Assembly: GCA_029975915.1 (NCBI GenBank)
Contig: JARKOC010000255.1
Span: forward strand, 1-9,285
Length of the DNA: 9,285 bases
Reading direction: 5' to 3'
Source: Bryobacteraceae bacterium
Lineage (GTDB): Bacteria > Acidobacteriota > Terriglobia > Bryobacterales > Bryobacteraceae
The notes beneath the pieces were generated by a model. That model did not search any database. It had not been told where the DNA came from and worked only from the letters and a program-made list of their open reading frames with translations. The position numbers were made by a program, and so were the translations under genes. Below, piece by piece: positions 743 to 9,285 of the stretch (positions within the stretch are counted from its first letter, which is position 1; each line of letters opens with the position of its first letter).

Positions 743-2422
743 TCACCTCGTTACGAAAGGAGTATACGCGGATAGCTCCCCGAGAAGATGGGCAGCAAGC
801 ATCCGAACTTGGACCTCAAGTGCGCGGCGATAGGTCACTCGATAGCCAAAATGGGGGTGCGTGATCTCGTGGTCTAGCCGTCGCTCGTAGGCGCGGAGTA
901 CAGCCTTTCGTCCTTCAGGCTGGAGTTGACAGCCGCCAGCGCGAGTCACGAGACTTCCTTCTCGGACCTCCCCATTGTTCAGCACCTGAAGCACGACGCT
1001 TTCCGCAATGAGTGGTCGAAACTCCTCGGCGACGTCGAGTGAGAGCGCGGGTCGTCCGAATCGTGGCTTGTGAAGGAAACCCATGTACGGGTCAAGCCCG
1101 ACAGAGTGAATCGTCGTCGTGAGATCTTTCACCAGCAGGGCGTATGTGAAAGATAGCAGGGCGTTTACGGGGTCGGGCGGTGGCCGCCGGGCCCTGCCAT
1201 TCGCGTCGAATGCGGATATATCAACTTTGACTGCCTCGGACAACATTGTGGTGAACTTTCCAAAATAGAGCCTCGCAGCGGTTCCCTCGATCCCAAGCAG
1301 GCTCTGAGTCGACTGGACCCTTCTGGCTGATGCGGAGAGTGCTCGCAGCTGACCATTCACTGCATCGGCCTGGCTCCGGGAGTTGCGACGAAGCAGGGTA
1401 GCACTGTTACGAATCTTGCCTGCGATCATTGCAGAGGCGATACTCAGCGCGGCTTCAGGCGAGGCACAGTACTGAGTTCGTCGCAGTTCGACATTCTTGG
1501 CTGGCAGACCCTCGGCCATGCCGCAGAACCATCCGCCGTATGTGAACCACAACAGCGGCGCCTCCCGTGCCATGAGCTCGCGGATGGCTTGGGCTGACAC
1601 GGAGATGTTGCCGAAGACACAGACTTGCGATACGTCGATCATCCGAAAGCTCGCAGTCACCTTGCCCTCGTGAAACACCTCGAGCCTTCCACGACGCACT
1701 CCGACTGTCGCGCCTTGAGTCGATACATACACCGGGCGGGCATCCTTGTCTGGTGCCATCACACGGCGGAGAGGTTCTCGATCGCGCGCCCGGACGGCTA
1801 ACGCATTTGTCTCGTCAGGCAGACAGACTCCGACAAGTGAGCATCGTGGGCATTTCGGGCTGCCAACGAGTGGCGCTGGAGCGTCAGGCGAGGCGGCGGT
1901 GTGCCATAGACGGCGGAGAATCCCCATGATCTCTGCTATTGCCTCGTCATCCACGGCGAAACACACTCTCCGCCGAGCTTCGGCATACCAGATCTCAGCT
2001 TGGTTCACTTTGTAGCCTGCCTCGCGCAGGAGCATTGCCTGAATGAGCGACTGAGTTCTATCGTTCGGCCAAGCGCCACCATCATCAGCGGTCCGGCCCT
2101 TCTTGTAGTCGACTGGGATAACGACGCCTCCGCTGGCGCCCTCTACGAGGTCAATCTGCGCTGTCAGCCCGAGCCTCTGCGATGTGAGCCAGACCGAGGT
2201 GGCACGGCGCCCTTCCCATGCTTCTGCTTTGTCCGGCAAGTTACCTGCCTGTGCATCTACTACTCTGTGAACGTACAGCCCCTCTTCGACGTCGTCATTC
2301 GTTGTGAAGCTTGACCGTACCCATTCCAAGTAGAACAGCCGCGGGCAATACACAAATTCGTTGACGATTCGAGCCGGCACAGTTTCGGGTAGGCCAGGGA
2401 GATCGGGGCGTATGGCTGTCAT
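743..2422 (-). CDS. cas4-cas1: Cas4-Cas1 fusion protein (spacer acquisition)
   Basis: This 559-residue protein joins a Cas4 nuclease (about residues 1-215) to a Cas1 integrase (about 228-559), a fusion characteristic of type I-U/I-G loci. In Cas4, C26 (in YCPRLFYLEW) and C191, C194 and C200 (CPRCSLVGVC) are the expected 4Fe-4S ligands; H52, D91 and the D105/K107 pair (VDYKKG) form the RecB-type nuclease site, followed by Q124/Q128. In Cas1, E379 (GIEGTAARLYF), H451 (FLHKPRFGRP) and E466 (DVAEEFRPLI) match the metal-binding catalytic residues. Cas4 checks and trims the PAM end of prespacers; Cas1 with Cas2 integrates them at the first repeat. All key residues are present, so the protein looks active. 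The start ATG overlaps the cas8 stop by four bases (ATGA). Its own ribosome site is weak, so translation probably depends on coupling. Confidence 0.97.
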   Translation of the reverse strand: MTAIRPDLPGLPETVPARIVNEFVYCPRLFYLEWVRSSFTTNDDVEEGLYVHRVVDAQAGNLPDKAEAWEGRRATSVWLTSQRLGLTAQIDLVEGASGGVVIPVDYKKGRTADDGGAWPNDRTQSLIQAMLLREAGYKVNQAEIWYAEARRRVCFAVDDEAIAEIMGILRRLWHTAASPDAPAPLVGSPKCPRCSLVGVCLPDETNALAVRARDREPLRRVMAPDKDARPVYVSTQGATVGVRRGRLEVFHEGKVTASFRMIDVSQVCVFGNISVSAQAIRELMAREAPLLWFTYGGWFCGMAEGLPAKNVELRRTQYCASPEAALSIASAMIAGKIRNSATLLRRNSRSQADAVNGQLRALSASARRVQSTQSLLGIEGTAARLYFGKFTTMLSEAVKVDISAFDANGRARRPPPDPVNALLSFTYALLVKDLTTTIHSVGLDPYMGFLHKPRFGRPALSLDVAEEFRPLIAESVVLQVLNNGEVREGSLVTRAGGCQLQPEGRKAVLRAYERRLDHEITHPHFGYRVTYRRALEVQVRMLAAHLLGELSAYTPFVTR

Positions 2423-3378
2423 GGTGCGACCGGGATCAAGACGCCAGAGGATTTGCCTCCGGAGGGCCTATAGCGTCTGGCTCGGCATACATGGATGATC
2501 CCGAGAGGTTTCAGCTTGGACAGTTGGGCATCGCTACCGACATCGTCAATGCTGGCCAAGGCTGGGTGCTCAATGAGAGCTGTTATGCCATGGGTGCCCA
2601 CGGGTTGGTCCCAGACGGGAAGCCGAAGCTCGTCATACGTCCTGGATCCGGCCGCCCTAACTGTGTGCCAGCCGCTGCTGAGCGGTCGTCTTCGCGAAGA
2701 GACGGTGGTGCGCAGCAAGGGGTAGCTCATCAGAGCAAGCCAAGTGGCTCCGGGGACTCCTCGCATGCTTGGCGATCCAGTGCCGTCCTCGGTGGCATCC
2801 CACATTGCCCGGTGATCGAGATATTCGCCGGTCACGCCAGCCACCCGACGCCATCCGGTGAGTGCTTGTCGCAGATAGTCCGGTTCTCTCTGAATCTGCT
2901 CGAGTGGCTTCGCCAGCATAGTTGCCATGGACTGCTTGCCTGAGGGCGCCGTGAATTGGCTGATCGCAATACGTCCCTTGTCATCCACAGCAAGATCAGT
3001 GACGAGAGACGATAACCAACGACGTGCCTCGGCGGCCTCTCCGGACTCCATGCCGGCGAGTAGCATTCGGCTGAGTCTGCGTAGATCGCTCGGCGGAACC
3101 CGTAGACCGTCTGGCGCAGCGCCGGGGGGCGGAAATCCTGGCGCAACGCCAGGCAGCACTGATCCGTCAGTGATCCCGGCAACAACTGTCTGTAGGCCGG
3201 CCGCGACAGCGTCTACGCTGCCGTAGCGGCCACAGATGACTGCGGTCAGATTTGTGCGATCCCATCGCAGCCTCGTTGAGTCGTCGGAGAATTCCGCCAG
3301 GAGGCGGAGAACGCCGATGGCCGCCAAGATGCCTAAGGGTGATTCGCCAGTGAGCGCTGGCAGTCGTACTTCATTCAT
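2419..3378 (-). CDS. cas8g: Short Cas8-like subunit of type I-G effector complex
   Basis: This 319-residue protein sits between cas3 and cas4-cas1, where type I-U/I-G loci carry their Cas8-like subunit (Csx17, or GSU0052/Csb3). The N-terminus (LPALTGESPLGILAAIGVLRL) resembles the proline-containing, hydrophobic start of those proteins; the rest has no motif I can place. It is much shorter than the roughly 700-residue Csx17 proteins and closer to the GSU0052/Csb3 size. The expected role, known for Cas8 in general, is PAM recognition and holding the crRNA 5' handle in the surveillance complex. I chose the ATG at 3378 because it overlaps the cas3 stop as ATGA and has GGGAG seven bases upstream; an in-frame upstream ATG at 3444 would lie inside cas3. 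No separate cas11 gene exists in the operon, so a small subunit may be missing, fused or internally translated. Function comes mainly from context. Confidence 0.75.
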   Translation of the reverse strand: MNEVRLPALTGESPLGILAAIGVLRLLAEFSDDSTRLRWDRTNLTAVICGRYGSVDAVAAGLQTVVAGITDGSVLPGVAPGFPPPGAAPDGLRVPPSDLRRLSRMLLAGMESGEAAEARRWLSSLVTDLAVDDKGRIAISQFTAPSGKQSMATMLAKPLEQIQREPDYLRQALTGWRRVAGVTGEYLDHRAMWDATEDGTGSPSMRGVPGATWLALMSYPLLRTTVSSRRRPLSSGWHTVRAAGSRTYDELRLPVWDQPVGTHGITALIEHPALASIDDVGSDAQLSKLKPLGIIHVCRARRYRPSGGKSSGVLIPVAP

Positions 3379-6284
3379 GATCCTTCTCCCGACACGGTCA
3401 TATCCGCACAGCGAACGACAGCTTCTAGCAGTGCCAGTCCCCACCTGCCATACCGCCGATTGAGTAGATGGAAGGCGTCCGCATGGCCCAGATCCACGGC
3501 TCGCGGCAGTTCGGCAGTCATCTCGATGCCGTCGGCGTACACGCTCAGTTGGTGATTCGCGTTGTCGGTGACAATGGGCAATAGCGGGCGCGCGTGTCCG
3601 TGGTGACTCGCGATCAGATGCAGGACGAGGTCAGCATCCGCCGAGTAGCCGTCCGCCAATGTCATCAGATACTGAGTGATCAGCGCGACAGACCAAGTCT
3701 CGTGCCGCGCGCGTCTAGGAAGGCCACTCCGCCGTCGGGCTTCCCGCTGTCGCTGCAGATCCCCCGGAGGCATGCCGGACTTGGCGAGCGGTTCAACGGC
3801 AATCGCGGCACGTACGGGATCGCCATCAAGGAGCATCGCTTGAAAGCGCGGATCTGCCTTGCCAAGATCATGCCAGCGAGCGGCATCGTAGACGGCCTGC
3901 GCGAGGTCGTCGGATAGCCCCAGGTGTTCTACGATCTCCCTCGCCCGATCAGCTACGGCCTGACAGTGTTTCGCGAGCGTGACCCGTCGATTGAGATGTA
4001 CTGTTCCTTCAGTTGCATCGTCGGATGCTTCCTGCCACCGAACGGTGGAGCCCGCCGGACGCATGAGTGCGACCGGAAGCAGGAAGCGTTGCTCAACAGT
4101 GTCCCTGCGGTTCACGGATTCGGGAACAGGCTGCACTGTGGCGTTCTCCATGATCTGGCGCAGGCGTTGTCGGCGGTTCTCCCTGTCCCATGCGCTTTCT
4201 GTTAGCGGCTGGGCTTCGTCGAGCCACGCCAGCAGCCAGCCCTTGCAGCGCTGCTCGAGCTCGAGCCTGATCTCGGGATCATCTGTCGTCTGCCAGGCCT
4301 GGATTCCCTCCCAGAGTTCGGGGTTCGGGAACGTCAGCGCGAGACGGTTGGGTAGTCGCAGATCGAGTCGTAGCGCAGGTTGATTGCGCTCAAGAGCGGC
4401 CAACTCCGCGATATCGGTGACTCTCTGTTTGCTGGTGGGTGACCAACCGTACTGATCAAGACCACCCATCTCAGTAGGCACCACCACGAGATCTCCGGGG
4501 CGTAGTTGCGCCGCCGAGGCCCACCGCCAGGCTGCAGACCCGTCGATCTCAGTAACGCGCCGCAAGACAGAATCCATAGAAGTGTGCCCAAAGGGAGGTG
4601 CCTCCCAATCATCATCGTCATCCCAATCGCTCACGGGCTCAGACTTCACACCGACTAGCCATCGGCGCACCGCTGAGAGCGGGACCTCGACGCACTCTTC
4701 CGCTCGGACAGGGATTGAATCAATGGCTTGCGTGGCTTCACCTTGACCGGCCGCCGAGCCATCGCCGTTGAGCAAACCGTCTCGCCACGCCAGCGAGACG
4801 GGCGCAACGCCGTTGTCAATCCCGTGCAGGTAGGGATCCAGGGGGGCATCGTTGGCTGGCGCGGGCCCGGTCCGCGTCCAGGCGTCAAGATGCGGGGGTA
4901 ATAGGAGAGGAATCGTTGGTGGGTCAAGCAGCGCATCCCTAGGCGGTGAGAACCCGCGGAGTGCCAGAGGAGAGACATCGATTGGGCCATGATTCGCTCG
5001 AATGAGGTCTTGGAGAAACTCGGCCGCATGTGCACTGGCAGTTCCGTATACGGGAGCGTTGGGGTTGTCGGTGTGGATGACAGTGACGGACGCGCTGCTG
5101 CGGAGGCCACGCCGATTGACTCGACCAATTCGCTGTACGAGTGCGTCCCAGGAAGCGCTTTCGGTCACCAAGTCGGTGGCATCGAGGTCGATCCCCACCT
5201 CCACTGTTTGTGTTGCGACCAAGACCGCGCTTCCCCGATCCTCGGTGCGTCCAGCTGCAAACAACCCCAACGCTTGCGCGACGATCGCCTCGCGATCGTA
5301 CTGACGAGTACGGCCGATCAACAGGAGAAGCTGCGCTGGCTCAGGGAGTCGCTTCGTTAGCTGAGCGTGCACTGCCCTTGCTCTGTCAATAGTGTTACAG
5401 ACCACGAGCACTCGACTTCCAGCATCAGTCGACTTGGCCAGTGCTGCCTCTGCCAGCTTCTGCACCGCAGAGTCCTCGGCCGCGGTCTCAACCACGAGCG
5501 TCTTAGTTGCAGTAATGCGCTGCCGCGCTTCAGCATTGGCGAGGTGGGCTTGGGTATCGAACTTCGGTGTCCAACCCGTCGGCTGGTCTCGGGCCGTCGC
5601 GGTGAGTTGGACAACAGCGGCCTGAGGGATACCCAGCGAGGCGCGCGGGGAATCATAGCTCTCGGCAGCGCCGAGAGTCGTCGTCAGCGCTGTCGCCAGA
5701 TGTGCCTCGTCAACAAAGATGACAGAGTCTGTCCCGACGAGCGCGGCATCAATCGGCCACCGCCGGGGACTCACACCGTAACCACGGAAGAACAAGCGAC
5801 TGCCAACCTGATCAACAGTCCCTGTTATAATGCCTGGTTGATCGGGTCGAGTCAGCCAGGCGGAGTCCCAGGTGACGCCACCGCGCATCTTCACCACCGG
5901 CAGCAATGTGCTGGGTGCTGACGGGCTCACGAGCTTGCGGAGCCCAGCAGCAACTTGGGCTGCGACGCTCCCTGGTCGCGCGCTTTCAAGTCCTTGCGCT
6001 ATTCGACTCGCGTGGGATGCTGCCTGGTCGACGACGATGCGGCGATCGACCACGAAGAAGATGCGACGACGACCAATGCGCGTGTTGTCTTTGATATCGG
6101 CGGTGAGCGCGCTGAAGAAGACGGCAATGTCGAGCATCGTTGTCTTGCCCAGACCTGTTGGCACATCGACAAGTGATGGCCAAGAGCCATGTTCGAGGAC
6201 CTCATCGACGAGATCACGTTGCCACGGGAACGGGCGCCAACCGTGTATCTCGCGGTGGAAATCCGTGAAGTCGTCAGCCTGCAT
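3375..6284 (-). CDS. cas3: CRISPR-associated helicase/nuclease Cas3 (C-terminal HD)
   Basis: This 969-residue Cas3 has the domains in the order of type I-U/I-G: superfamily 2 helicase first, HD nuclease last. Helicase motifs are the FPWQ Q-motif (Q22), Walker A PTGLGKTT (42-49), DEAH (192-195), TAT (228-230), the TVEVGID segment near 360 and motif VI QRIGRVNRRG (384-393). The C-terminal HD site contains H773, H805-D806 (WHDLGK), H861, H894-H895 (HHGH) and D961 (CAD), so it appears complete. Cas3 is recruited to a target-bound complex, nicks the displaced strand and unwinds and degrades DNA. A run of acidic residues at 553-560 (DWDDDDDW) falls in the middle linker. The ATG at 6284 has AAGAGGG eight bases upstream and overlaps the csb2 end by 11 bases; a longer in-frame start at 6353 lies inside csb2 and is not needed for homology. 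Its stop overlaps the cas8 start. Confidence 0.96.
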   Translation of the reverse strand: MQADDFTDFHREIHGWRPFPWQRDLVDEVLEHGSWPSLVDVPTGLGKTTMLDIAVFFSALTADIKDNTRIGRRRIFFVVDRRIVVDQAASHASRIAQGLESARPGSVAAQVAAGLRKLVSPSAPSTLLPVVKMRGGVTWDSAWLTRPDQPGIITGTVDQVGSRLFFRGYGVSPRRWPIDAALVGTDSVIFVDEAHLATALTTTLGAAESYDSPRASLGIPQAAVVQLTATARDQPTGWTPKFDTQAHLANAEARQRITATKTLVVETAAEDSAVQKLAEAALAKSTDAGSRVLVVCNTIDRARAVHAQLTKRLPEPAQLLLLIGRTRQYDREAIVAQALGLFAAGRTEDRGSAVLVATQTVEVGIDLDATDLVTESASWDALVQRIGRVNRRGLRSSASVTVIHTDNPNAPVYGTASAHAAEFLQDLIRANHGPIDVSPLALRGFSPPRDALLDPPTIPLLLPPHLDAWTRTGPAPANDAPLDPYLHGIDNGVAPVSLAWRDGLLNGDGSAAGQGEATQAIDSIPVRAEECVEVPLSAVRRWLVGVKSEPVSDWDDDDDWEAPPFGHTSMDSVLRRVTEIDGSAAWRWASAAQLRPGDLVVVPTEMGGLDQYGWSPTSKQRVTDIAELAALERNQPALRLDLRLPNRLALTFPNPELWEGIQAWQTTDDPEIRLELEQRCKGWLLAWLDEAQPLTESAWDRENRRQRLRQIMENATVQPVPESVNRRDTVEQRFLLPVALMRPAGSTVRWQEASDDATEGTVHLNRRVTLAKHCQAVADRAREIVEHLGLSDDLAQAVYDAARWHDLGKADPRFQAMLLDGDPVRAAIAVEPLAKSGMPPGDLQRQREARRRSGLPRRARHETWSVALITQYLMTLADGYSADADLVLHLIASHHGHARPLLPIVTDNANHQLSVYADGIEMTAELPRAVDLGHADAFHLLNRRYGRWGLALLEAVVRCADMTVSGEGS

Positions 6285-7686
6285 CGCGTTCACCCTCTTC
6301 GATCTTCTCGGGCTGGAGAAGTCCCACTCCGAAGTAACGCCCGGCACCAACAATCACCGGGCCCGCGACCGGCTGGTCGAAAGTGACTCGCGCATGGCAG
6401 AACAGTCTCCCTCTCGCTCTGCGCGGGAGTTCCTGAGGTCGGAGATTGACCGCTCCCGTGATCATCCCCGCTGTGCTTACCTCGACCAGTTCGGGCGTTG
6501 GGAAGCCTGCGAGGGCCACGCTCTGCAAGACGCCTGCAGCCAACTCCCCACTCTTCGGATAGCGATCCAACACAATCGGGGTGGCGGTAACCCACCGACG
6601 CGATGCTCGTCTCCAGTGCCAAGGGCTTGCAGCTCGCGGTAGAGGCTCGTCCGGTCTGTATTCGAGCACGAAGTCATTGCGAAAGCCTGGTACGTGGAGA
6701 ACTACTGTTCCATCGACACCCGAGCCCAGAATCCCGCTGAGGATGCGTCGGCGCGTCGCTTCATCCATACCAGGTACGGCAACTGCGAGCCCAACAAGAT
6801 GACCATCCGCGAACGGGCTACCGCAAACCGGCAGACCGAGGTAGGCAACATGCGGGTTGCCCTCGAACCCGTGGCCGTGAAGTGCCGGAGGAAGAGGTTC
6901 CTTGGTCTGACTCATGACCATTGAGCGCAGCGCGGCGGTGAATATCGGGAGCAGCCTGCCGGCAGGCCGCTGGTCGCGGAACCGGAGGACGACGAGGTCA
7001 CGATAGGGCGACTGAAACGTTACTGCAGGTGACTCTGCCTCAAGCTCGCCAAGACGTTGATATGTGCGCCTGGCCCTGGCGCCGTCGCTTGCCTGCCAAG
7101 CTGAGAGCCCCTGCTCATGAAGCGTGTTGAGTTCGTCTGTGTAGCCGGGATACGGCACTCGTAGCTGCAGCTCACCGGGCCCATCGCCGACGGGTTCGAA
7201 CACGTCTAAGCCGTCCGGGATAGAGATCTCATGAACGCGCCGCACGCCCATCAGGACGACGGATGTCGATCGCCCCAGGTAGGGCACGCGCCGCGCCAGC
7301 GAATCGAGGCAAGCGACTGCTTCATCGTTCAGAGTGTCATCGGACGCCCACACCAGTTGCACCCGCGACTGCATGGGGAATGCGGATCGTCGTTCTCGAA
7401 GACCACTCGTGCGACCGGGGTGGTTGAGATTGCCACCTTTCGGCGCAACGGCGTTAGTCACAACGTAGGTTCGGCTCCGACTGGCCAGCGCATCGGACGC
7501 GTGTAGCCGGGGTGGTGGCAGGAGCTCCAAGGCTCGCAGGGCTGGAAGGGCTTCGCTGCTCGCCACCGAACGCAATGCCGAGAAGACCCGAGCAGGATGG
7601 GGTGGCCATTCGACTGTCCGCGGATCTTGCCCCCCTGCCGCGTCATAGCGATCAGCCGCCAAGAAGAGGTCGAGGCAGATGGCCAT
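6274..7686 (-). CDS. csb2: Csb2, Cas5-Cas6 fusion (GSU0054 family)
   Basis: This 470-residue protein matches the Csb2/GSU0054 pattern, in which a Cas5-like half caps the crRNA 5' end and a Cas6-like half cuts the precursor at the repeat. Near the N-terminus VEWPPHPARVFSALR (25-39) matches the family's EWPPSPxRLLRAL motif. VPYLGRSTS (134-142) is typical of the central part. The C-terminal half has TPIVLDRYPKSG (from 369) and ends in the Gly-rich loop GAGRYFGVGL (447-456) characteristic of Cas5/Cas6 RAMP proteins. I cannot identify the cleavage residues with certainty. The ATG at 7686 is one base after the csb1 stop, with GGGAG inside the csb1 end, so the two are translationally coupled. This protein would bind the array repeat hairpin. 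Whether it also handles the degenerate repeat upstream of csb1, which lacks that hairpin, is unclear. Confidence 0.92.
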   Translation of the reverse strand: MAICLDLFLAADRYDAAGGQDPRTVEWPPHPARVFSALRSVASSEALPALRALELLPPPRLHASDALASRSRTYVVTNAVAPKGGNLNHPGRTSGLRERRSAFPMQSRVQLVWASDDTLNDEAVACLDSLARRVPYLGRSTSVVLMGVRRVHEISIPDGLDVFEPVGDGPGELQLRVPYPGYTDELNTLHEQGLSAWQASDGARARRTYQRLGELEAESPAVTFQSPYRDLVVLRFRDQRPAGRLLPIFTAALRSMVMSQTKEPLPPALHGHGFEGNPHVAYLGLPVCGSPFADGHLVGLAVAVPGMDEATRRRILSGILGSGVDGTVVLHVPGFRNDFVLEYRPDEPLPRAASPWHWRRASRRWVTATPIVLDRYPKSGELAAGVLQSVALAGFPTPELVEVSTAGMITGAVNLRPQELPRRARGRLFCHARVTFDQPVAGPVIVGAGRYFGVGLLQPEKIEEGERDAG

Positions 7687-7687
7687 G

Positions 7688-8833
7688 TCATTCTCCCGCG
7701 ACTTCGGCCTTGGTAAGGCTGAAGTCGATGGCCTTACCAAGGGCAGGTGACGGAGTGAGTTCGATAGGCTCCAACTCAAGTCCGACTCCTGCCGCTAGTG
7801 CGGCATCCAAGGCCGAGTTGTACAGCGCAATCGCTTCGTCCGCGTTCAAGCGGAACGATTTTGTGAGGCCCCCCCGCCCCACCCATTCGAGCTTCTCGTC
7901 TTCGACGACAAGCTCGCACCCACTGCGCAACCAAAGCCCCGGACCGCCGAAAGCCAGCCTGTCGCCCAAGAGGGCGTACGCTGCCAACAGGACCCGCGAG
8001 GCGAGTTGTTGCTCTGCGCTGGCAGAACCGAAACCGAGGCGAACCAGCGCGCCCAGGCTTAGCGTCGCCATGCGAGTTGCGCTCGTGATGGTTACGCCAC
8101 CATGGGCAGGGTTTGGGGCGATATTGCCATGCCCAATCTCGCTGAGCTTTCCCTTAACGGTTTTCTCACCGCTGGCGGAGTAAGTCCACTCATCTCCTTC
8201 GCCCTTCCTGGAGCCAACGAGGTTGAGTGGGTCCATGCGGCCCGCCTTGCGGGATCCTTCGATTGGGTCCCAGCCCACGATCTCGCTGGCATAGACACGA
8301 GGGAACTTGGCTTGGCGTCCCGTGCGGTGGCTGTTCCAGCTGCCGTAGACAAGGCTTCCAGGATCATGCTTCAGAACCGCAGCCGCATTATCGAGGTCTG
8401 CCGATTGAAGTGCTCTACCCAACATGGTCTTGTCGAACTTGACGCCATCCAGGAGTGAGTCGCGCCAATAGGCATCGAACACGCGGTGAGGGGCGTCCAG
8501 ACCCGTGATCACTGCGTCTGCGGCGCCATGGTGAGTAAGCCGGAGCATCGGGACTCGAATGAATCCCGCAGCCCAGGCTTGGCGAAGCGCTGTCTCCGCG
8601 CGGTTGGCCTCGGAAGGAATCTGGTCAAGCAGCACGGCCTTCCGCTGCTCTCCGTCGCGGACACGCTCTTCAAAGAGATAGGGAGAAGCGTCGTTGCCTG
8701 ACATTGGAAAGGTCGGCGGGAACACCTTGCTGCCAGGGCCTCCGCCGGCCTGATACGTAACGTTGATACGCGCAAGCGCGAACTCGTCGCCCCGGACGTT
8801 GTCCTGCAGTTGCTCGAGCGTAAGAGATTCCAT
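7688..8833 (-). CDS. csb1: Csb1, Cas7 backbone protein (GSU0053 family)
   Basis: This 381-residue protein is the Cas7-type backbone of the type I-G surveillance complex, which polymerises along the crRNA spacer. Family patterns are AGGGPGSKVFPPTFP (29-43), KAVLLDQIPSEANRAE (65-80), LDAPHRVFDAYWRDSLLDG (112-130), SLVYGSWNSHRTG (160-172), SEIVGWD (183-189) and IGHGNIAP (233-240) followed by GGVTI. Cas7 proteins make the RNA thumb contacts that flip out every sixth guide base, which matters for the regulatory guide upstream. The ATG at 8833 was chosen because GAGGAG (8840-8845) lies six bases before it; an in-frame TTG at 8890 has no such site and adds residues unlike the family. It is the first gene of the operon, and its upstream region holds the likely cas promoter and the proposed target of a crRNA-like RNA. 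Confidence 0.94.
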   Translation of the reverse strand: MESLTLEQLQDNVRGDEFALARINVTYQAGGGPGSKVFPPTFPMSGNDASPYLFEERVRDGEQRKAVLLDQIPSEANRAETALRQAWAAGFIRVPMLRLTHHGAADAVITGLDAPHRVFDAYWRDSLLDGVKFDKTMLGRALQSADLDNAAAVLKHDPGSLVYGSWNSHRTGRQAKFPRVYASEIVGWDPIEGSRKAGRMDPLNLVGSRKGEGDEWTYSASGEKTVKGKLSEIGHGNIAPNPAHGGVTITSATRMATLSLGALVRLGFGSASAEQQLASRVLLAAYALLGDRLAFGGPGLWLRSGCELVVEDEKLEWVGRGGLTKSFRLNADEAIALYNSALDAALAAGVGLELEPIELTPSPALGKAIDFSLTKAEVAGE

Positions 8834-8839
8834 GATGTG

Positions 8840-8845
8840 CTCCTC
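8840..8845 (-). promoter_or_regulatory. Ribosome binding site of csb1
   Basis: GAGGAG on the minus strand, six bases before the ATG at 8833, fixes the start of the operon's first gene and excludes the longer TTG start at 8890. Confidence 0.85.
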
Positions 8846-8892
8846 GTTGAGTTGGTTGCCTGGTCGGATCGTAGTAGCGCGGTCTGACAATC

Positions 8893-8923
8893 ATGATATG
8901 CCTTCGCCTGGGGTACGCGTCAG
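8893..8923 (-). promoter_or_regulatory. Candidate cas operon promoter
   Basis: On the minus strand CTGACG (8918-8923) resembles a -35 box (4 of 6). It is 17 bases from CATATC (8895-8900), or 19 from the better -10 TATCAT (8893-8898). Transcription would begin near 8886, giving a leader of about 50 bases containing the GAGGAG site. A second -35-like hexamer, TTGATG, lies at 8953-8958 but lacks a well-spaced -10. The match is modest and the start site is not proven, but either choice is overlapped by the proposed full-length protospacer (about 8919-8958). Confidence 0.4.
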
Positions 8924-8932
8924 GCACATAGC

Positions 8933-8958
8933 GTTCCAACCCAACCAATTACCATCAA
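8933..8958 (-). promoter_or_regulatory. Proposed target site and PAM of crRNA-like RNA
   Basis: Read on the minus strand this is TTG (8958-8956) followed by ATGGT, AATT, GG, T and TGGGTTGGAAC (8955-8933). The 23 bases after TTG match the spacer-like sequence at 9006-9028 at 19 positions; mismatches are at guide positions 6, 8, 9 and 12. The last 11 bases are identical without a gap. TTG fits the TTN PAM known for type I-U, on the correct (5', non-target strand) side. A bound complex covering a normal 35-37-base spacer would reach about 8919 and so cover the -35 of the candidate cas promoter. Sequence identity and register are seen directly; regulation is inferred. Confidence 0.75.
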
Positions 8959-8974
8959 TGATTCGGCGGTATCC

Positions 8975-8980
8975 TATAGT
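8975..8980 (+). promoter_or_regulatory. -10-like element for the divergent crRNA-like RNA
   Basis: TATAGT differs from the consensus TATAAT at one base and overlaps an alternative TATCCT (8970-8975). Initiation about 7 bases downstream would fall near 8986-8988, directly before the degenerate repeat. No good -35 is seen at 17 bases; TTACCA (8949-8954) is at a poor spacing of 20 (or 15 from TATCCT) and lies inside the proposed protospacer. Confidence 0.45.
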
Positions 8981-8990
8981 TGCTTGAGCC

Positions 8991-9005
8991 GGGCTCCATT
9001 GCGGC
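8991..9005 (+). repeat. Orphan degenerate CRISPR repeat (3' portion)
   Basis: The 13 bases GGCTCCATTGCGG (8992-9004) are identical to positions 23-35 of the array repeat in its transcribed orientation. The last repeat base is C instead of G (9005), so the expected 8-base handle reads ATTGCGGC against ATTGCGGG. The 5' half of the repeat, including the left arm and loop of the 7-bp stem, is not recognisable. It lies about 8.7 kb from the array and in opposite orientation. By a rough estimate, a 13-base match of this kind in a window this size would arise by chance in well under one case in a hundred. Confidence 0.88.
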
Positions 9006-9047
9006 ATGGTCAGCGGGTGGGTTGGAACCCGTGCTTTCCCGGTGCGT

Positions 9048-9077
9048 TTGGCCGGCGGCGAGAATGCCGCCGGCCAA
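9048..9077 (-). terminator. Strong GC-rich hairpin after putP, possibly bidirectional
   Basis: TTGGCCGGCGGC (9048-9059) and GCCGCCGGCCAA (9066-9077) form a perfect 12-bp stem with a 6-base loop, starting 7 bases after the putP stop. It lacks a U-tract on either strand, as is common in high-GC actinobacteria. It most likely ends the putP message and, being symmetric, could also end or stabilise the plus-strand crRNA-like RNA that runs toward it. Confidence 0.8.
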
Positions 9078-9084
9078 GCCCCCC

Positions 9085-9285
9085 TCAGAACGCCCGAGCC
9101 GCCGCCAACTCAGCCGCCTCGTCGAACTCGGTATCGATATCAGGCGCCTTCGTCAGCAGCGACACCACGACCGCGACAATGACGTTCACGATGAACCCCG
9201 GCACAATCTCATACAGCGCGCTCCACGAGCTGTAGTGCCACACGAACACGGTCACGGCGGCGCTCAGCATGCCCGCGATCGTGCC
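9085..9285 (-). CDS. putP: Sodium/proline symporter PutP, C-terminal 66 residues (partial)
   Basis: The frame is open to the right edge, so the gene is cut by the window rather than broken. The 66 visible residues start GTIAGMLSAAVTVFVWHY and contain LYEIVPGFIVN followed by a hydrophobic stretch VIVAVVVSLLTKAP, the last membrane segments of PutP (E. coli PutP has the similar LYEIIPGF ... VVSLLGKAP near its end). The tail is short and acidic (DTEFDEAAEL), as expected on the cytoplasmic side. PutP imports proline with sodium. It is on the same strand as the cas operon but separated from it by a strong hairpin and 251 bases, so it is a chromosomal neighbour rather than a functional partner. Confidence 0.9.
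   Translation of the reverse strand, partial: GTIAGMLSAAVTVFVWHYSSWSALYEIVPGFIVNVIVAVVVSLLTKAPDIDTEFDEAAELAAARAF

Follow-up and report, generated by a model that had tools for sequence, protein, structure and literature searches.

The window analysed here (the whole 9,285-nt stretch) carries a type I-G CRISPR–Cas operon on its minus strand. The first gene of the operon and the one predicted to be regulated, csb1/cas7g (7688–8833, TIGR02570), is followed by csb2 (Cas5-Cas6; 6274–7686, TIGR02165), whose product is the predicted processing enzyme, by cas3g (3375–6284, TIGR02621), by a gene for a 319-aa protein of the I-G “Cas3-extension family” (2419–3378, NF049934), by a cas4-cas1 fusion (743–2422, NF049935) and by cas2 (455–739, TIGR01573). 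The subtype hallmarks Csb1, Csb2, Cas3g and the Cas4-1 fusion all score above the cut-offs of the models named; a scan of seven window proteins gave no Csx17 match for the Cas8g/Csx17 large subunit, and the operon position without a recognised Csx17 is occupied by the 319-aa Cas3-extension protein. A CRISPR array on the same strand (38–288) contributes four 36-nt repeats to the window (repeat end ...GGCTCCATTGCGGG in cas sense) separated by spacers of 35–37 nt; an Rfam scan returned only weak CRISPR-repeat matches for it, together with one microRNA match at chance level.

Upstream of csb1, the plus strand carries a minimal CRISPR-like unit in which a repeat analogue, a 36-nt spacer analogue and a repeat-like hairpin follow one another from 8986 to ~9077. 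The first, degenerate repeat (psi-R1, 8986–9005) folds only weakly. A preliminary description of this DNA had recognised a repeat remnant at 8991–9005 with a self-matching guide attached to it, and base-by-base comparison bears this out: 13 bases (8992–9004) are identical to the 3′ end of the array repeat, seven of the eight bases of the handle included in psi-R1 (8998–9005; ATTGCGGC versus ATTGCGGG) agree, the guide abuts the degenerate repeat, and pairing starts at guide nucleotide 1. This guide (9006–9041, its 36 nt assumed from the array spacers of 35–37) matches nucleotides 1–5, 7, 10–11 and 13–23 of a 36-nt protospacer upstream of csb1 (8920–8955, minus strand); over the part that had been claimed to pair (9006–9028 against minus-strand 8955–8933), 19 of 23 positions do agree, with mismatches at 6, 8, 9 and 12, and the stretches 8933–8955 and 9006–9028 form an 83% inverted repeat. 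The TTN PAM expected on the correct side is there as TTG (minus strand, 8958–8956), and the self-target lies 99–122 nt from the csb1 start. Repeat end, handle, PAM and a self-target before csb1 are what a CreR predicts (RNAs that regulate cas genes, demonstrated in types I-B, I-E and V-A; PMC13131331), and they support that reading of the unit.

The borders of the unit needed some revision. It had been placed at 8986–9047, where it does exist, but its actual end is near 9077 once the 3′ hairpin is included; the second repeat analogue (psi-R2, 9042–9077) holds this hairpin at 9048–9077, starting 6 nt in, and may also serve as a terminator. Only 1.3% of 300 random local 36-mers are as stable as 9042–9077, and a scan for consensus terminators found nothing. 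The stop codon (9085–9087) of a gene for a PutP-like sodium/proline symporter, whose C-terminal end occupies 9085–9285 on the minus strand, falls just past the hairpin, which could double as the terminator of the PutP-like gene. On the 5′ side, the −10 said to precede the degenerate repeat is present as a plus-strand TATAGT (8975–8980), the −10-like hexamer of the predicted CreR transcript, but a sigma-70 consensus scan of 8800–9130 on both strands found no full promoter, so that the claimed element reduces to the hexamer.

When 8834–8985 was dinucleotide-shuffled 20,000 times and both strands were searched, the best guide match was 18, reached once, and 19 never occurred. A sister genome (G001), 98.8% identical to the window across 9,165 columns, leaves the guide, the PAM and target nucleotides 1–11 unchanged, with pairs 18 and 20 lost in the target; a search of this genome (97% complete), blind to weaker sites including the csb1 target itself, gave no further site for the guide at three or fewer mismatches. 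No exact 18-nt guide match was found in viral contigs and no phage record matched 8834–9084, which leaves a phage origin of the guide unsupported.

Relatives of Csb1 were gathered through a protein search, genome scans and region fetches; a first scan of genome contigs with Csb1 alone gave no relative, and a scan with alignment A1 gave 30 loci. From 106 loci (the window and L023–L127), 86 distinct csb1-upstream regions were scanned, six loci being dropped as duplicates (L044, L060, L070, L073, L074, L088), three for a Csb1 score below 80 (L042, L086, L087) and one as lacking upstream DNA (L072), with ten set apart for their more distant Csb1 (L108, L109, L110, L113, L115, L117–L120, L122). L001–L022 are shorter first versions of loci and were superseded (L018, from G099, stands outside the comparison); also outside are Csb1 matches in G1023, G1105, G1187, G1264, G1334 and G237 and one of two in G1106, nine weak second-type matches (G780, G792, G793, G798, G799, G800, G811, G814, G823) and 23 plasmid records, and G949 is the L045 locus. 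To count as a candidate, a region needed a repeat-end-like sequence with a guide directly behind it whose match, flanked by a PAM, lay in that region too; the looser-rule searches and the phase and 13-of-15 counts given below had T[TA]N as a search condition. L059 and L033, where no array was found in the locus, were scanned with a panel of repeat ends. Two pairs of loci, L023/window and L033/L103, are near-copies.

Such a unit is carried by 19 of the 86 regions, or 17 lineages after merging near-copies. Fifteen were retrieved under the main rules (window, L023, L024, L031, L033, L103, L034, L051, L052, L059, L061, L079, L098, L105 and L107) and four weaker ones under looser rules (L104, L112, L063 and L068); L059 and L079 score 16/20 and 17/20 on 24 nt and both 12/15 on 18 nt, and the ten more distant loci gave no candidate at 12/15 or better. 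Related loci lacking guide/target pairs had been named beforehand as the outcome that would speak against a CreR, and what was found favours the CreR reading: pairs are present in 18 other regions of the 86 (17 without the near-copy L023), with letters mostly different in guide and target alike, against 67 regions in which no guide/target unit was found. The guides are mostly unrelated across loci, yet each has a target in its own locus, and when 16 of them were searched against the other 85 regions none had an equally good PAM-flanked match except within window/L023 and L033/L103. Re-dealing guides among loci gave at most 9.1/15 against a mean of 13.5/15 for own pairs, which mainly tells that the guides differ, the pairs having been chosen for matching.

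Of 63 ectopic repeat ends across the 86 regions, 13 (counting those of L023 and L103) possess a target of at least 13/15 next to T[TA]N, where ~0.11 would be expected, random guides in the same regions reaching a PAM-flanked 13/15 in 0.17% of cases (58/34,075). Where the locus has its own array (59 loci), PAM-flanked targets follow 11/46 ectopic ends before csb1 (L023 included) versus 1/252 elsewhere (Fisher p = 4e-9); the single match elsewhere, in L052, was judged to be array sequence. The 36 nt after the spacer are stable in combination (p = 1e-6 across 17 loci), with 5/17 singly below 5% of random 36-mers and the 3′ hairpin absent by this measure in some loci, for example L051 and L033. 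Several PAM-bearing rows (L039, L048, L062, L075, L080, L085, L106, L124, L126 and L052 at −696) and looser-search rows (L066, L075, L082, L084, L095, L106) were left out of the candidates, their preceding bases being judged unlike a repeat end.

A score blind to positions 6, 12 and 18 is biased towards mismatches at just these positions, and an unmasked selection and a phase control were run for this reason. In the unmasked selection (14 loci, without L023 and L103 and including the non-candidate L057), mismatches occupy 20/28 of positions 6 and 12 versus 23/210 elsewhere in nucleotides 1–17; in the phase control, ignoring 6/12/18 gave 13 PAM-flanked sites and any other phase 3–6. Positions 6 and 12 are those at which bases flip out in type I Cascade. 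The effector structure reported for I-G Cascade has the sixth base flipped out (PMC9638904), and for CreA of type I-B positions 6 and 12 are reported to be dispensable and a seed of 1–5 and 7–11 essential (PMC8501985). Past nucleotide 17, each position matches in 2–8 of 15 loci (counted without L103 and L023), which is near chance; pairing in the window extends to nucleotide 23. Within the seed as mapped for type I-B (1–5, 7–11) the window pairs at 8/10 positions, the 16 tabulated loci at 8–10 and L063 and L068 at all ten. The window's seed mismatches, at 8 and 9, recur as an identical pair in L061, and L059 has mismatches at 9 and 10. In type I-B, mismatches 8 and 9 would have abolished CreA function; given that L061 has the same two, type I-G may tolerate them, or the unit in the window may be weakened.

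The PAM emerges even where it was not required: 15 of 20 pairs scoring at least 15/20 (near-copies L023 and L103 among them) have T[TA]N, versus 4.5% of equal-scoring random guides (p = 8e-17). The five pairs without it were rejected, those of L057, L062 (twice) and L069 being judged repeat-array artefacts, and the fifth coming from L111, in whose locus no array was found. PAM letters also sort with the repeat end (in L059 and L033 read from the ectopic repeat): ...TTGCGG or ...TAGCGG goes with TTC or TTG (window, L024, L051, L052, L059, L061, L063, L068, L107), ...TTGAGG with TAC or TAT (L031, L033/L103, L034, L098, L104, L105) and ...TGAAG with TTA (L079, L112), groups that we infer to be PAM classes. 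Reported PAMs are TTN in one I-G system (PMC9638904) and TAT in Bifidobacterium lactis (PMC12915315); the TTG of the window agrees with TTN, a PAM known from another I-G system and not from the window organism.

In a Csb1 tree of 84 rows the window, L024 and L107 are neighbours on moderately supported forks (90/65 and 90/50), and all three have a unit close before csb1; L024 is assigned to Tessaracoccus palaemonis, and its Csb1 is 71% identical. Pairwise comparison finds positions at which a guide letter has changed and the target has changed alike, keeping the pairing: seven between the window and L024, seven between the window and L107, and eleven between L024 and L107. The three units may be either one renewed element or separate gains. 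No unit was found in a 13-row clade branching beside L107, so either loss is common or decayed units were missed by the search.

The best predicted csb1 promoter of the window (8893–8923, minus strand) combines a −35-like CTGACG (8923–8918), a 19-nt gap and a −10-like TATCAT (8898–8893), with a predicted transcription start at ~8885. The end of the protospacer overlaps this −35 by 4 nt; the promoter call is weak (11/100 shuffles score as well), and the overlap is for that reason only a hint. Together with the seed mismatches at 8 and 9, a weak promoter call is the chief weakness of the CreR reading. A simple promoter score places the best csb1-side −35 at protospacer nucleotide 33 in the window, 36 in L107, 25 in L024 (tied with nucleotide 7) and 31 in L098, and at nucleotides 21 and 23 in L031 and L033, in both of which a small ORF comes next. 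The −35 of the best promoter thus falls within protospacer nucleotides 21–36 in these 6 of 14 loci, and in the other eight the best promoter is not so placed; shuffles equalling the promoter score number, per 100, 3 for L107, 2 for L024, 34 for L098, 9 for L031 and none for L033. As predicted from these elements, the self-target of the window would sit between two divergent start regions.

From these lines of evidence we consider it probable, with good confidence, that 8986–9077 encodes an RNA of the CreR type, by which the cell's type I-G Cascade would be directed to DNA upstream of csb1 and would likely repress the cas operon. Judged from the DNA, the anatomy of the unit is that of a CreR; membership of that class rests on repression. 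The RNA would start near 8986–8988, with its 5′ end set either by Csb2, which is reported to leave an 8-nt 5′ handle on crRNA (PMC9638904), or by the transcription start alone, and its 3′ hairpin would be bound by Csb2. The complex would then pair with protospacer nucleotides 1–5, 7, 10–11 and 13–23 and little past that, probably insufficient for Cas3 cutting, so that the outcome would be binding without cutting and likely repression. Such limited pairing fits the binding without Cas3 cutting described for CreA (PMC8501985) and CreR (PMC13131331). The PAM-distal end of the bound complex would cover part of the predicted csb1 −35, and owing to the divergent start regions on either side of the target CreR may be damped by the binding as well. 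On the model of CreR in other types, CreR and ordinary crRNAs would compete for Cascade, and a shortage of effector would lift repression; the idea that the cell thereby responds to a lack of crRNAs or to anti-CRISPR attack comes from types I-B, I-E and V-A (PMC13131331).

With CreR as described in that source, the unit of the window shares a mini-CRISPR beside the cas operon, a guide partly complementary to cas-upstream DNA, and no recognised toxin. Unlike known CreR, it would work through a type I-G effector (Csb1/Csb2, with no separate Cas5), pairs up to nucleotide 23 (most relatives to ~17) with seed mismatches 8 and 9, and has its target between predicted divergent start regions. RNA-guided autorepression of a cas operon is shared by the Cas9 long-form tracrRNA (Workman et al, 2021, via PMC8730458), which differs, as described there, in being a class 2, tracrRNA-derived system with no mini-CRISPR. 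A review calls CreR “widely distributed in Type I” (PMC12737573). Among the type I subtypes, I-G has been described as the least understood; its effector is described as having no Cas5 at the crRNA 5′ end, and PAM reading is posed there as an open question (PMC9638904). Among the open-licence literature matches listed, which did not include the primary CreR survey, we found no report of CreR or CreTA in type I-G or I-U. That survey, reportedly Liu et al (2023, Cell Host Microbe), may already list an I-G case.

CreA, the guide of CreTA modules in types I-B and I-F (PMC8501985, PMC9458426, PMC10097628), bears its own likeness to the unit, with degenerate repeats around a spacer analogue, a PAM-flanked target and, as reported for I-B, pairing at 1–5 and 7–11 with 6 and 12 free. 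A CreTA- or CrePA-like antitoxin guide, through which Cascade would repress a small toxin gene upstream of csb1 and not the cas operon, nevertheless seems unlikely in the window: CreA represses a toxin RNA gene, whereas none was recognised here between target and csb1 among ORFs of at least 40 aa, and the csb1-strand ORFs of that size in this stretch run into csb1 in a different frame. What speaks for it is that some CreT genes encode no more than a very short RNA, and ORF lists limited to at least 40 aa would miss these, that L031, L033 and L103 have a conserved 85-aa ORF between their target and csb1, and that L059 and L061 have small ORFs between target and mini-CRISPR; given these ORFs, units of this layout may act on other genes in the relatives.

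That the unit is instead a functionless relic, left from an array in decay and matching its own locus by accident, would sit well with the degenerate first repeat, the two seed mismatches and the two distal pairs lost in G001. We regard it as quite improbable, as unrelated guides elsewhere match their own targets with mismatches clustered at the flipped positions, the pairs are enriched upstream of csb1, and the guide of G001 is unchanged. The 83% inverted repeat formed by 8933–8955 and 9006–9028 could also be read as a pair of operators for a protein repressor; this is very improbable, since it leaves the abutting CRISPR repeat, the PAM and the 6/12 mismatch pattern unexplained and since the relatives show unrelated sequences and other orientations. 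Coincidence of a short repeat remnant with a partial match, conceivable at any single locus given the 0.17% of random guides that reach a PAM-flanked 13/15, can hardly be credited against 0/20,000 shuffles in the window and 13 pairs observed versus ~0.11 expected over 63 ectopic ends.

If the CreR reading is true, effector-guided autorepression extends to one more subtype, and a low cas expression that rises on effector titration would be explained. The natural guide/target pairs would moreover give an in vivo readout of PAM, seed and flipped positions for type I-G, and they suggest the pairing length permitted without cutting (~17 nt in most); Tessaracoccus palaemonis (L024) is a named organism carrying such a locus. 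On a broader reading, whose prospects we regard as evenly balanced, type I-G Cascade of Actinomycetota would be widely used as an RNA-guided repressor, with mini-CRISPRs renewed before csb1 that repress either cas (CreR) or small guard genes, one architecture thus serving self-control and addiction; the examples of guard genes would be the 85-aa ORF (L031, L033, L103) and an Arg-rich mini-ORF (L059).

The 85-aa ORF lies between the self-target (~−500) and csb1 and is conserved between L031 and L033, its presence in L103 being deduced from near-identity to L033. The L031 copy is 71% identical to P0121, a HicA-like fold is only hinted at by the model (AF2 pLDDT 80), and a promoter-like pair lies directly behind the target; we take this ORF as a candidate CRISPR-guarded toxin. 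In L059, reading by eye finds a 36-codon Arg-rich mini-ORF ~−364 to −254 before csb1 (assuming a TTG start), with what looks like a strong ribosome site, an early AGA codon and a stem-loop behind; it stands between target and mini-CRISPR, an order that resembles CreTA. L061, also read by eye, has two tandem target-like copies at ~−520 to −460, each after TTC and the two together ahead of a small ORF, hinting at possible double-site binding. L063 and L068 combine a 10/10 seed beside TTC with little pairing past nucleotide 11 and have a repeat-like hairpin downstream. In L052 (~−800 to −300), the candidate guide comes after the last repeats of a csb1-upstream array and before a further degenerate repeat, a layout suggesting how such units arise.
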